A DNA stretch of 64,000 bases, taken from the NCBI RefSeq assembly GCF_003352165.1, contig NZ_CP029176.1:2921501-2985500 (forward strand), given 5' to 3'. Positions 41,311 through 46,949 of this stretch are shown one piece after another. The translations under genes were made by a program, and so were the position numbers. The notes under the pieces were generated by a model. That model did no database searches. It had not been told where the DNA came from and was given only the letters and a program-made list of their open reading frames with translations. This DNA comes from Acidibrevibacterium fodinaquatile (GTDB taxonomy: Bacteria > Pseudomonadota > Alphaproteobacteria > Acetobacterales > Acetobacteraceae). Each line of letters opens with the position of its first letter. Position 1 is the first letter of the stretch.

Positions 41311-43209
41311 TCAGAAACCAAACATGTGATCGAGCGAGAAGCCGCCGGCTGCGTCCATCAGGCCATGATAGCCGAACAGGCGGCAGGTGGTGTCGCGGAT
41401 CAGAACATAGCCGCGCGACCCGGCGCGGGCGAGGCGATCGGGGCCAAACACGTCCTGCGGGTGGATCAGCGCCGAGCCCGAACAGGCGATGGCGAGCGGC
41501 GCCTCCGCGACCAAGGCGCCCGCTTCGTCATGGAGCAGGAGGCTCGTCGTCGAGCGCGGGTGCCATGGCGCTGAGGCCGGGTAGATGAGACAGGTGAAGC
41601 TCTGCCGCCCGCCCTCGCCGAGGCGAAGAAAAAGCCGCGTCGAAAGCCCCGGTGGCTTGCCGCTATAGGATTGCGGCTCGTCGCGATAGGTCATCAGCGT
41701 ATTGAAGATGTGGCTGCCGAAGCTCGATTCCGCCTCGTGGCCGCTCTCGCGATCGGCATAGCGGAACAAAGCGTGCAACCAGCCATTGCCCTCGCCGCCA
41801 TCACGGAAATCATAGACCAGCTCGCCATGGCCGCCTTCAGGCAGGGCGTCCGGGGCGAGAACGCTGTCGAGATCGAGGGCGAGCGCGTGATCGCGCGCAA
41901 GGCAGCCAAGGAAATGACTCCCCGCCGGCCGTCCCTCAGGGTCGAAAAGATCGAGGCGGAGCGGCAGCGAGGTCTCGCTCGTCGCCATCGGCGTCGGCTG
42001 CACGATGGTTGCGAAACGCCGCCGCGGCAGGATCGGAAACGGCAGCAGAAAGCCGCGCCCGAGCGGCGCCGGGAGCGCGCGGAGGGTGGGATCGGGGGCG
42101 AGATCGGCGCGCTCGACATTGACATGGGCGATGCGGGTGCGCCCGCCGCGCACCACCTCATAGCGCGGCCGGACGACATGGCGCCCGGCGCGGAGTTCGA
42201 TCTGCGCCGGCCAGCGAATGCCGGGCAGCAATGTCGCGACATCGAGCGCCTCGGTCGCGAAGGGCGCGATCGGGCGGGGGAACGCGACCGGCCGCTCCGC
42301 CCCCATGCGGTCGAGCGCGATCGCGCCGGCGGGGATGGCGACGGCGTGGCTATTCTGCACCCAGAGGATCACCCGCTCATCCTCGCGCGGCGCGGGGAGA
42401 CCGGCATAGCGCTCAGACGGCCAGGCATTGGCGTCATGCGTGCAAGAGAGACTGGGACCAGCGTCGGTCGGGAAGGTATCGAGGGCGTATTTCACCACGT
42501 CATGACCGGCGGCGCCGATGACATGCAGGAAAAGCTGGCCGGTGAACGGCGGCAGCCCGAAGCGGGCGCGGACGGCACGGCTGTCGATCGCGAAGCCGCC
42601 TGGACCCGCAGGCAAAGCCTCTTCCCAGGTGGCCAGCACCTCGCCGTCGGCGGCGAACAGGCGAAGCCAGAGGCGGACCGCGCCGGCGCCGTAGCCGGCC
42701 CAGTAATTGGCCGAGACGAGGCGCGTCGAAAGCCCGTCCTGATCGCGAAAAAAGGCAAAGTTGGTCGCGAAATTGCGCCGCTCGCCATAGCGTTCGGGCA
42801 CCGTCAGCATCTCCCGCGGCAGGCGGATCGCATCGAGCGAGAGACATTCCATACCGGCAGGCATAAAGGGCGCGAGACGGGCCTTGAGGCGCTCGGCGTC
42901 GAAGGCGGTGATCAGGAGTGCGCGCGCGGCACTGCGCGGCAGGTCGGTGAGCGGGCACGCCGCGCATCCGGCGATCTCGCGGCCGATCGCCCGCACATCC
43001 TCGACATAAACCTCAGCGATCGGCGGCAATGCTGGGGCGAGCGCAAGCAGCGCCGGGGCAATGCCATCCGGGTCAAGCAGGGCAATCGGCGCGAGCGGGC
43101 GGAGCCGCGCCGCGAGCGCGCTGAGAGCTTCCGCCGCGAGCGGATGCGAGAGCGCCTTATAGAGCACATTGCCGCCCTGACGCTGGTCAAAGGTCTCGAT
43201 CGCGAGCAT
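41311..43209 (-). CDS. Large conserved-looking protein of unknown function
   Basis: 632 residues, not recognised. No signal peptide, membrane span or classical catalytic motif is evident. The sequence is soluble-looking and rich in beta-prone segments, with motif-like stretches NFATNFAFFRDQDGLSTRL, SFGSHIFNTLMTYRDEP and FGYHGLMDAAGGFSLDHMF. A CAACPL pair and a SLSCTHD segment could bind metal, but this is speculative. The ATG at 43209 has GAGAGG upstream (a GTG at 43212 is possible). It sits 11 nt before the GntR gene, suggesting a shared transcript. Codon and GC usage match the neighbours. Confidence 0.7.
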   Translation of the reverse strand: MLAIETFDQRQGGNVLYKALSHPLAAEALSALAARLRPLAPIALLDPDGIAPALLALAPALPPIAEVYVEDVRAIGREIAGCAACPLTDLPRSAARALLITAFDAERLKARLAPFMPAGMECLSLDAIRLPREMLTVPERYGERRNFATNFAFFRDQDGLSTRLVSANYWAGYGAGAVRLWLRLFAADGEVLATWEEALPAGPGGFAIDSRAVRARFGLPPFTGQLFLHVIGAAGHDVVKYALDTFPTDAGPSLSCTHDANAWPSERYAGLPAPREDERVILWVQNSHAVAIPAGAIALDRMGAERPVAFPRPIAPFATEALDVATLLPGIRWPAQIELRAGRHVVRPRYEVVRGGRTRIAHVNVERADLAPDPTLRALPAPLGRGFLLPFPILPRRRFATIVQPTPMATSETSLPLRLDLFDPEGRPAGSHFLGCLARDHALALDLDSVLAPDALPEGGHGELVYDFRDGGEGNGWLHALFRYADRESGHEAESSFGSHIFNTLMTYRDEPQSYSGKPPGLSTRLFLRLGEGGRQSFTCLIYPASAPWHPRSTTSLLLHDEAGALVAEAPLAIACSGSALIHPQDVFGPDRLARAGSRGYVLIRDTTCRLFGYHGLMDAAGGFSLDHMFGF

Positions 43210-43266
43210 CACAGCCTCTCAGTTCACCGGCGCGGCGGCGCTGCGGGCACCACCAAACGGACAAAC

Positions 43267-44382: not shown

Positions 44383-45174
44383 ATGACGATGTCAGGTTCT
44401 GATCCCGCCGCTTTGCCGCGTGTCGTGCTCTCCGCCGTCGTGCCGGTGCGGGACGAGGCGCCGAACATCCTGCCGCTCGCCCGCGAATTGCGGGCCGTGC
44501 TGGCGGCGTTTGCGGCGCGGCATGGCGGCGCCGAAATCGTCTATGTCGATGACGGGAGCGCCGATGAGACGCCAGCCCGCCTTGCCGAAGCGGCGCGGCT
44601 CTCCGGCGTTCCGCTACGCTGGCGCCGCCATCGCGTCGCTTGCGGACAGAGTGCGGCGCTCGCGACCGGCATCGCCGCCGCCGCCGGCGAATGGATCGCA
44701 ACATTGGACGGCGACGGCCAAAACGACCCCGCCGATATTCCGCGTCTGTTCGATCGCGCGCTGGCCGAAGCGGGTAGGCGCGAGCCGGTGTTGATCGCGG
44801 GATGGCGAAAGGCGCGGCGCGATGGCTGGCGAAAACGGGTGAGTTCACGCCTTGCCAATCGCCTCCGCGCGGCGATGCTCGGCGATGGAACGCCCGATAC
44901 CGGCTGCGGGCTGAAGCTGTTTCGCCGTGCCGCCTTCCTCGATCTGCCGCGTTTCGATCATATGCACCGCTTTCTGCCGGCGTTGTTTCTGCGTGCCGGC
45001 GGGCGCGTGGTCAGCGTCGCGGTCAATCACCGGCCGCGCCACGCCGGGCGCTCGCATTATGGCACGCTCGACCGGCTTTGCGTCGGCCTGGTCGATCTCG
45101 CCGGCGTCTATTGGCTGATGCGGCGCAGCACCCGCCCCGATGTCGTGACGCCGGACCAAGGGGCGCGGTCGTGA
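44383..45174 (+). CDS. Glycosyltransferase family 2 (dolichol-phosphate mannosyltransferase-like)
   Basis: A 263-residue GT-A enzyme with VLSAVVPVRDEAPNILPLA, IVYVDDGSADETP, the metal-binding ATLDGDGQNDPADIP and a GCGLKLFRRAAFLDLPRFD acceptor segment. It resembles polyprenyl-phosphate glycosyltransferases, with at most one weak hydrophobic C-terminal stretch. The ATG at 44383 is chosen over 44296, which overlaps the divergent gene. It overlaps the SH3 gene by 4 nt (GTGA), making it the first gene of the coupled five-gene run. Confidence 0.87.
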   Translation: MTMSGSDPAALPRVVLSAVVPVRDEAPNILPLARELRAVLAAFAARHGGAEIVYVDDGSADETPARLAEAARLSGVPLRWRRHRVACGQSAALATGIAAAAGEWIATLDGDGQNDPADIPRLFDRALAEAGRREPVLIAGWRKARRDGWRKRVSSRLANRLRAAMLGDGTPDTGCGLKLFRRAAFLDLPRFDHMHRFLPALFLRAGGRVVSVAVNHRPRHAGRSHYGTLDRLCVGLVDLAGVYWLMRRSTRPDVVTPDQGARS

Positions 45175-45722
45175 CGCGGCGGCTCGGCTTGGTGCTGGCG
45201 CTGCTGCTGATCGCAGCGGCGCCCGCGCCGCCAACGCCCCCCGCCTCCCCTCCCCCCTCCCCCGCACCTTCGTCGGCGCCAACGCCCGCGAAAGGCAGCG
45301 TCACCGGCTTGCCGCTGCCGCGCTTTGCCGCGCTGCGCTCTGATGACGTCAATCTCCGTGCCGGGCCCGGCACGCGCTATCCGATCACCTGGGTCTATAA
45401 GCGGCGCGGCCTGCCGGTTGAGATCGAGCGCGAATTCGATGTCTGGCGGCTGGTGCGCGATGCCGACGGCACCGAGGGCTGGGTCCATGAGGCGACGTTG
45501 ACCGGGCGGCGGACCCTCCTTGTGATCGGCGCCGAACAGACGTTGCGCGCCGCCCCGCGCGACGATGCCGCCATCGTCGCCCGCGCCGCAGCGGGCGTTG
45601 TCGGGCGGATCAGCCATTGCGCCGCCGATTCCCCCTGGTGCGAGGTCGAGATCAAGGGCTATCGTGGCTTTCTGCCACGCACGGCGTTCTGGGGAAGTTT
45701 TCCGGGGGAGGCGGTGAATTGA
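45171..45722 (+). CDS. Exported protein with two bacterial SH3 (YgiM-like) domains
   Basis: 183 residues. An N-terminal signal peptide (LGLVLALLLIAAAPAPP) is followed by a Pro/Ser/Ala linker and two SH3-like repeats, the first with DDVNLRAGPGTRYPITWVYK and EGWVHEATLTG, the second with TLRAAPRDDAAIVARA and WCEVEIKGYRGFLPR. Such proteins bind peptidoglycan or envelope partners. The start is GTG at 45171, overlapping the GT2 stop. Its stop overlaps the TTG start of the hydratase beta-N piece. Confidence 0.85.
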   Translation: MTRRLGLVLALLLIAAAPAPPTPPASPPPSPAPSSAPTPAKGSVTGLPLPRFAALRSDDVNLRAGPGTRYPITWVYKRRGLPVEIEREFDVWRLVRDADGTEGWVHEATLTGRRTLLVIGAEQTLRAAPRDDAAIVARAAAGVVGRISHCAADSPWCEVEIKGYRGFLPRTAFWGSFPGEAVN

Positions 45723-46057
45723 ACGGATCGGAGCCCGGCGAAGACCCAAGGCGCGCCCATCACGATCTCGGGGGGGTGCCGAAATTCCTCTGCGAGGCGG
45801 TGGACACCGCACCGCACGGGCTCACCGCCTTTGATCGTCGCGTCGATGCCCTGCGCCAGATCCTCGGCGCTGACGGGATCATGCGGGTCGATGAATTGCG
45901 GCGCGGGATCGAGGCGATTCCGGAGGCCGACTATCACCGCCTGTCCTACTACCAGCGCTGGCTGCGTTCGATCGTCGCGACGCTCCTGCGCAAGGGGGTG
46001 ATCACCGCAGACGAGCTGCGGGCGGCGCTGGCCGCGCGGAAAGACGGTGTGCGATGA
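45719..46057 (+). CDS. Nitrile hydratase/thiocyanate hydrolase, beta N-terminal-type subunit
   Basis: 112 residues equal to the N-terminal half of nitrile hydratase beta: HHDLGGVPKFLCEAVD, DELRRGIEAIPEADYH and the helix YYQRWLRSIVATLLRKGVI. In ordinary nitrile hydratase this is fused to the SH3-like half; here the halves are separate genes, as in thiocyanate hydrolase (ScnB). A TTG at 45719 with GGGGGAGG 8 nt upstream is the best start (TTGA overlap with the SH3 gene); no ATG fits. It overlaps the next gene by 4 nt. Confidence 0.82.
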   Translation: MNGSEPGEDPRRAHHDLGGVPKFLCEAVDTAPHGLTAFDRRVDALRQILGADGIMRVDELRRGIEAIPEADYHRLSYYQRWLRSIVATLLRKGVITADELRAALAARKDGVR

Positions 46058-46338
46058 CATATCTCGCCCCCGGCACCCCTGTCATGGTGCGTAACGACTG
46101 GCCGGAGAGCCGGGGCGAGGCGCATATCCGAACGCCGCATTATGTGCGCGGCCGCGCCGGTGTCGTCGTCCGCCATCTCGGCGATTTTCCCAACCCCGAG
46201 GATCTCGCCTTCGCCCGCCCGGCGGCGGTGGTCCCGCTCTATCACGTGCGCTTCGAGCCAAGCACGCTCTGGCCGCCGCCGCGGAGCGCCGGCGCCTTGC
46301 TGGTCGAGATTTTCGGCCATTGGCTGGAGGCGCGATGA
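46054..46338 (+). CDS. Nitrile hydratase/thiocyanate hydrolase, beta C-terminal-type subunit
   Basis: 94 residues equal to the SH3-like C-terminal half of nitrile hydratase beta: GTPVMVRNDWPESRGEAHIR, the conserved HYVRGRAGVVV arginines that contact the oxidised cysteines of the alpha subunit, and PLYHVRFEPSTLW. Corresponds to ScnA in the thiocyanate hydrolase arrangement. ATG at 46054 within ATGA; coupled downstream to the alpha-type gene. Confidence 0.84.
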   Translation: MTYLAPGTPVMVRNDWPESRGEAHIRTPHYVRGRAGVVVRHLGDFPNPEDLAFARPAAVVPLYHVRFEPSTLWPPPRSAGALLVEIFGHWLEAR

Positions 46339-46949
46339 CCACCCCGCCCGATCTGCTGGCAACCCCGGCCGAGGCCCTGTTCGCCGCCCTCCTCGACGTG
46401 CTCGCCGCCAAGGGGGTGGTGCGCGAGGCCGAGCTTGCCGCGCGCATCGCCGCAACCGATGCCGCATCACCCGCGCAAGGGGCGCGGATGGTGGCGCGCG
46501 CCTGGGTCGATCCCACCTATCGCGCGCTGATGCTCGCCGATGGCACGCGGGCGGCGGAAGCGCTCGACATCCCGATGCTCGGCGCGCCGCCGCTCGGGGT
46601 TCTGGAAAACCGCCCTGGCCGCCACCATCTCGTCGTCTGCACGCTGTGCAGTTGCTATCCGCGCGCGGTGCTCGGGTATCCGCCGTTCTGGTTCAAATCG
46701 GCCGCCTACCGCGCCCGCGCGGTGCGTGACCCGCGCCGGCTGATCGCCGAATGGGGCACGGTGTTGGCGCCGGAGACGGAGATCGTGGTGGTCGACTCGA
46801 CCGCCGATTACCGCTGGATGGTGCTGCCCCAACGCCCCCCCGGCACCGAGGGATGGGGGGAGGCGGCGCTGGCGGCGCTGGTCCGCGAGGGGGATATGAT
46901 CGGGGTCACGGTGCCGCAGGCCGGCGATCAAACTGGCGCAATGCGATAA
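46335..46949 (+). CDS. Nitrile hydratase alpha / thiocyanate hydrolase gamma-type catalytic subunit
   Basis: 204 residues with the metal-claw motif VCTLCSCY (Cys102, Cys105, Ser106, Cys107). The Thr in CTLCSC is the cobalt-type version, in contrast to CSLCSC of iron enzymes. Other family segments are GYPPFWFKSAAYRARAVRDP and MVLPQRPPGTEGW. The enzyme hydrates nitriles or thiocyanate using a non-corrin Co(III) centre with oxidised cysteines. Gene order (beta-N, beta-C, alpha-type) equals scnB-scnA-scnC. No activator or metallochaperone gene is adjacent. The ATG at 46335 overlaps the previous stop; 46320 is an alternative. Confidence 0.88.
   Translation: MTTPPDLLATPAEALFAALLDVLAAKGVVREAELAARIAATDAASPAQGARMVARAWVDPTYRALMLADGTRAAEALDIPMLGAPPLGVLENRPGRHHLVVCTLCSCYPRAVLGYPPFWFKSAAYRARAVRDPRRLIAEWGTVLAPETEIVVVDSTADYRWMVLPQRPPGTEGWGEAALAALVREGDMIGVTVPQAGDQTGAMR

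Follow-up and report, generated by a model that had tools for sequence, protein, structure and literature searches.

Canonical nitrile hydratases of the Co type (PDB 1ire, 4ob1, 3qxe) have one beta gene, a separate accessory gene, and a Trp following the CTLCSCYP sequence of the alpha subunit. In the three-subunit nitrile hydratases, of which a handful of enzymes have been studied so far, the beta subunit is divided over two genes. The AnhD-AnhE-AnhA enzyme of Streptomyces canus CGMCC 13662 (subunits of 10.4, 11.4 and 21.3 kDa) is a nitrile hydratase that hydrates acetamiprid; it has no activator, and AnhD, the N-terminal beta piece, acts as cobalt and subunit-swapping chaperone, forming AnhD2A and handing the Co-loaded alpha to the apo-enzyme (PMC7329996). 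The toyocamycin nitrile hydratase (TNHase; 21.2, 10 and 11.4 kDa) is an (alpha beta gamma)2 hexamer (PMC8574189), while thiocyanate hydrolase, ScnB-ScnA-ScnC (PDB 2dd4), also has a split beta subunit. Here we describe a related locus, with genes for beta-N, beta-C and alpha subunits, in a 64,000-nucleotide stretch of the Acidibrevibacterium fodinaquatile chromosome (NZ_CP029176.1, positions 2,921,501 to 2,985,500; this whole stretch is called the window), to which a first-pass annotation had ascribed a thiocyanate-hydrolase architecture. Comparison of the sequences makes it likely that the three genes encode one cytosolic, activator-free, three-subunit Co(III)-type hydratase, with beta-N as chaperone and with the conversion of an organic nitrile into its amide as the most likely reaction. 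The enzyme is a further example of the three-subunit nitrile hydratase kind that is already known, widespread and partly characterised; it is related to thiocyanate hydrolase, not identical with it.

We observed that the split of beta into genes for 112 and 94 residues, the gene order, the coordinates and the CTLCSC motif of alpha were as the first-pass annotation had given them (Table 1). Pfam and TIGRFAM profiles indicated that the two small proteins are homologous to the two halves of nitrile hydratase beta: beta-N to the N-terminal half (and to ScnB/AnhD) and beta-C to the C-terminal half (and to ScnA/AnhE). With a C(T/S)LCSC motif in alpha and both beta domains present, the locus belongs to the nitrile hydratase superfamily that includes thiocyanate hydrolase, and with the N and C halves of beta on two separate genes it belongs to the three-subunit kind of AnhDEA and TNHase. 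The single beta gene with an adjacent accessory gene that marks the canonical Co type was not found at this locus. In a search of PDB sequences, alpha was nearest to the alpha chains of Co nitrile hydratases (1e-51; ScnC, 1e-39), and beta-N and beta-C fitted nitrile hydratase beta chains better than ScnB and ScnA. Alpha and beta-N are each encoded once in the window genome. The locus shares with S. canus AnhDEA the order beta-N, beta-C, alpha, the Co-type motif, similar subunit sizes and a genome without an activator; with TNHase, compared by description, it shares the three subunits, and with the canonical Co-type enzymes the CTLCSC motif, the beta arginines and homology over all three pieces.

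In bacterial and archaeal genomes, a scan recovered 80 related loci (67-94% identity), nearly all of them from Acetobacteraceae or relatives. Beta-N, beta-C and alpha were adjacent in 78 of the 80, and the internal 4-nt overlaps, mostly ATGA or GTGA, recurred between beta-N and beta-C in 68 of 79 loci and between beta-C and alpha in 71 of 79. The ratio of non-synonymous to synonymous substitution (dN/dS), calculated against four relatives, was 0.12-0.30 for the three genes, indicating purifying selection. The adjacency, the mostly retained overlaps and these ratios establish that the three-gene set is not an artefact. Among 200 sampled genomes of the window's family 122 had a match, roughly 100 of them close; about half of the Acetobacteraceae genomes sampled had the enzyme itself, mostly at high identity. 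An enzyme that is usually single-copy, under purifying selection and this common in the family is more in keeping with a steady role in the cell than with an occasional pollutant-degrading gene. Two loci (L009 and L056) carried a window-clade alpha without adjoining beta-N or beta-C, between an O-acetylhomoserine-sulfhydrylase-like gene and ggt. Five Acetobacteraceae paralogues (L128, L131, L133, L135 and L136) had beta-N and alpha in one open frame, with no beta-C found, and L131 appeared to be without the CTLCSC motif.

When we examined an alpha tree of 84 sequences, all canonical enzymes fell on one side of a branch supported at 100/98; on the other side were the window clade, other split-beta enzymes, ScnC and a Que-linked alpha-like protein. 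In a tree of joined alpha, beta-N and beta-C, the branch parting canonical from split enzymes was supported at 100/100, with the window outside the canonical group. The first-pass annotation had set the enzyme apart from ordinary nitrile hydratase and had named a phylogeny with all three pieces inside the canonical enzymes as what would speak against this; the trees bear out the distinction. The nearest relative outside the window clade was the split nitrile hydratase of the Agrobacterium rubi plasmid pW2_73_1 (L083), followed by split enzymes of other Acetobacteraceae. L083 has the same gene order, but it has a long branch, is preceded by an amidase and a DMT transporter, and its alpha is 53.5% identical to that of the window. 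The claim that this split and order are special to scnBAC did not hold, as S. canus anhDEA has both (PMC7329996), and we found them also in Streptomyces, Planktothrix, Agrobacterium and others. AnhDEA probably belongs to another lineage of the split branch than the window enzyme, as judged from a like-arranged Streptomyces operon (L193) and not from the S. canus sequence; L193 groups with enzymes of the order beta-C/alpha/beta-N, and its alpha is 51% identical to that of the window. By these sequence comparisons, the second subunit was already two separate proteins before the window lineage arose. In 399 genomes of the phylum no ScnC above the TIGR03887 cut-off was found, and ScnC was supplied from plasmid records instead. 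ScnC-clade members were also present in Acetobacteraceae (L144 and L199). Two plasmid-borne true thiocyanate hydrolases (L087, 3940-4791; L199, 2035-2886) carried their ScnB and ScnA parts on a single fusion protein of 283 aa.

The residue after CTLCSCYP separated the same two branches. CTLCSC was present in all 80 window-clade relatives and was followed, after YP, by Arg in all of them. Across the split branch this residue was Arg or Lys in 105 of the 107 loci counted (basic-gate loci), the exceptions being L089, with Thr, and L131, where the motif was not found; in the canonical loci it was Trp, Phe, His or Tyr (53 of 53). It is Arg136 in ScnC and Trp in the 3vyg chain. Independent split records (Streptomyces, Planktothrix, Rhizobium and Agrobacterium) and independent canonical ones (from an archaeon, a Bacillus relative and a cyanobacterium) obeyed the same rule. 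The exception L089 (3956-4627) is a lone alpha-like gene (CTLCSCYPTS) on a Rhizobium plasmid, between queC and IMP dehydrogenase/queE. A further arginine, Arg80 of beta-N, is replaced usually by Ile or Lys in canonical enzymes; Arg also occurs in the canonical L197 and L200, so that this site is not strictly diagnostic. By position, Arg61 of beta-N is presumably the beta-Arg52 of nitrile hydratases, and Arg26 of beta-C (Arg141 of 2ahj_B) is, we assume, the other beta arginine that faces the oxidised cysteines. Some canonical-branch enzymes have an apparently split beta: in Gloeocapsopsis (L200, 2956-4623) the split appears secondary, and L101, L139, L140 and L143 are similar, although frameshifts are not excluded in these four. 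All of them keep the Trp and the accessory gene, which indicates that the residue and activator markers track the branch and not the splitting itself. Together, the two correlations offer a simple way of telling the two superfamily branches apart.

The first-pass annotation had noted that no activator gene is adjacent, and had suggested searching the genome for one of the P15K/NhlE type. Its observation extends to the entire genome, as a genome-wide profile search recovered a single PF21006 match, the beta-N gene itself, and no separate activator. Sixteen window-clade genomes searched whole also had one match each (beside alpha in 15, on another contig in G542), so that a second beta-N-like gene was found in none of the 17 single-enzyme genomes searched whole. 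Another genome of the clade, G546, had two matches because of a second enzyme. In canonical genomes the same search recovers both beta and accessory. A second beta-N-like gene adjoined 48 of 53 canonical loci (the exceptions were two Fe-type enzymes, two Acetobacteraceae enzymes and one short flank). Next to the 105 basic-gate loci, of which some have short flanks, there was none. L087, the locus of a fused true ScnC enzyme, gave a weak second beta-N-like match, of 26 bits. PF21006 was used in place of the TIGR03889 accessory search, which gave no match and had no positive control. Being a free protein with homology to the activators, beta-N may itself serve as the chaperone, and as the window operon shares its parts, its order and its lack of an activator with S. 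canus anhDEA, the same maturation is the likeliest.

We propose that the subunits assemble into a complex that is probably alpha2 beta-N2 beta-C2. Alpha would hold Co in the CTLCSC loop, with two loop cysteines in their oxidised sulfinic and sulfenic forms, and these would be held by two arginines, beta-N Arg61 and beta-C Arg26. The reaction would be the hydration of a C-N triple bond, most probably that of an organic nitrile, to the amide. The basic Arg110 of alpha, in place of the canonical Trp, is expected to suit the pocket to polar or anionic substrates. TNHase differs in acting on a cyano-nucleoside antibiotic. Beta-N would double as the chaperone for cobalt and subunit swapping, a role reported for S. 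canus AnhD (PMC7329996). Several points weigh against this proposal. The alpha subunit scored 208 bits with TIGR01323 (nitrile hydratase alpha), below its curated cut-off of 250 bits. A chaperone from outside the PF21006 family would escape our search, and a beta-N chaperone is not universal among three-subunit enzymes, as ToyJ of the toyocamycin enzyme reportedly matures by itself (cited in PMC7329996). An amidase was found beside a split enzyme only in L083 and, by eye, in L191 (gene calls in the GC-rich flanks of other split loci were otherwise too poor for use), and not beside the window enzyme.

If the enzyme were a thiocyanate hydrolase, it would convert SCN- into carbonyl sulfide and ammonia. 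Part of that architecture is real: the window shares with ScnBAC the split, the order and the sequence CTLCSCYPR, ScnC lies on the same split-beta branch, and alpha Arg110 and beta-N Arg80 correspond to ScnC Arg136 and ScnB Arg111. These features are, however, not specific to thiocyanate hydrolase. The arginine at the Arg136 site is common to nearly the whole split branch, and Arg110 alone does not imply thiocyanate, because the same Arg is found in a Streptomyces operon with the anhDEA layout, which is a proven one for a nitrile hydratase. The first-pass annotation had suggested a phylogeny of the CTLCSC subunit against ScnC and NthA; in our trees ScnC formed a distinct clade (100/100) with the window outside it. 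We used a second joined three-piece set, to which Streptomyces, Planktothrix, Rhizobium, archaeal and Bacillus-related records had been added; in the approximately unbiased (AU) test a single clade of window and ScnC was rejected without the long-branched L083 (p 0.018), but not with it (p 0.136). Alpha alone could not place the window (p 0.49 against ScnC, p 0.43 against canonical), whereas the joined pieces could. Alpha also scored about 50 bits better with the nitrile hydratase profile than with the ScnC profile TIGR03887 (158.7 bits), 133 bits under the curated equivalog cut-off of the latter (291 bits), while a real ScnC gives 357 bits. The search of the window genome found no P15K-type activator. 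Thiocyanate hydrolase as the identity of the enzyme was rejected by profile score and tree, and we consider it very unlikely; gene order alone is insufficient ground for such an annotation. A recent split of the beta gene in an otherwise canonical nitrile hydratase is scarcely credible as an account of the window enzyme. The canonical clade does include secondary splits, as in Gloeocapsopsis and perhaps the four loci named with it, but a single clade of window and canonical enzymes was rejected in the second joined set (AU p 0.007), and the split canonical enzymes keep the Trp and the accessory gene, neither of which the window has.

We also evaluated the role of the 112-aa gene. Activators are homologous to beta-N, so the beta-N profile finds them too, and this gene might be an activator only (P15K/NhlE type), with the enzyme formed by alpha and beta-C, or by alpha alone as reported for ToyJ. 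This is highly improbable, as beta-N still begins with HDLGG and retains the arginine that is invariant in structural beta subunits, and as its profile match is to the beta family TIGR03888 and not to the accessory family TIGR03889. A further alternative concerns the substrate: the enzyme may hydrate one cellular nitrile or cyano-metabolite linked to gamma-glutamyl/glutathione chemistry, such as beta-cyanoalanine or a gamma-glutamyl nitrile, with gamma-glutamyltransferase (Ggt) as partner. In 27 of 81 loci the gene immediately after alpha is ggt, its start lying -94 to +173 bases from the alpha stop, and these loci (L007, L008, L015, L040, L042, L060 and 21 more) have several unrelated upstream contexts. 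No Ggt match was seen beside the SH3 gene in genomes lacking the enzyme, within about 1.5 kb of downstream flank, and the frequency of the enzyme in Acetobacteraceae agrees with a cellular substrate. However, the window has ClpS/ClpA downstream and its ggt genes elsewhere, and two thirds of the relatives are without the link, which leaves this specific substrate class rather unlikely. The ggt link is still the best lead to the substrate, though absent at the window. A wider scheme is possible but doubtful: the superfamily would consist of two deep branches, distinguished by one residue and one gene. In the aromatic-gate branch the activator would be a separate beta-N-like protein; in the basic-gate branch, which would take in thiocyanate hydrolase, a free beta-N would usually be both subunit and cobalt chaperone. 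In Acetobacteraceae the enzyme of this second kind would be a common chromosomal one, often ggt-linked, for an unrecognised cellular nitrile or cyano-metabolite.

Table 1. Features of the three-subunit hydratase locus (window positions)
Feature	Position	Strand	Evidence or remark
GT2 glycosyltransferase	44383-45174	+	PF00535; upstream neighbour of the enzyme genes
Exported SH3 protein	45171-45722	+	PF06347; upstream neighbour, no part of the enzyme
Beta-N subunit, 112 aa, TTG start	45719-46057	+	PF21006 3e-16; TIGR03888 positions 4-96 of 226
Beta-N Arg61	45899-45901	+	Invariant, 77/77 aligned sequences
Beta-N Arg80 in SYYQRW	45956-45958	+	Arg in 35/35 aligned split-branch sequences
Beta-C subunit, 94 aa	46054-46338	+	PF02211 1e-15; TIGR03888 positions 140-224 of 226
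Beta-C Arg26 of HIRTP	46129-46131	+	Aligns with Arg141 of 2ahj_B; invariant in alignment
Alpha (catalytic) subunit, 204 aa	46335-46949	+	PF02979 7e-70
CTLCSC metal-binding motif, Co-type, alpha residues 102-107	46638-46655	+	Sequence
Alpha Arg110, position of ScnC Arg136	46662-46664	+	Alignment

The genes lie head to tail in the order GT2, SH3, beta-N, beta-C, alpha, and the four 4-nt overlaps between successive genes (GTGA, TTGA, ATGA and ATGA) that the first-pass annotation had reported are present. It had taken them as coupling the enzyme to the glycosyltransferase and the SH3 protein. While the overlaps are real, the GT2 gene occupies this position in only 2 of 81 loci (the window and L004) and is confined to the window genus, and it was rejected as a partner. 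The SH3 gene adjoins the enzyme genes in 43 of 81 loci; its orthologues were found in 21 of 22 Acetobacteraceae genomes without a window-clade enzyme, most often beside MoeB/DsrE. Since MoeB, DsrE and SH3 stay together in genomes without the enzyme, this neighbourhood says little on function and is inherited rather than a partner. SH3, MoeB, DsrE and QueC were accordingly rejected as partners, QueC being present in one such locus, and with QueC its product preQ0, a nitrile, was dropped as a favoured substrate. Elsewhere in the window, positions 41311-43212 (minus strand) encode a 633-aa protein without a Pfam match that adjoins an ELM1-like protein and has the same place in L004-L006.

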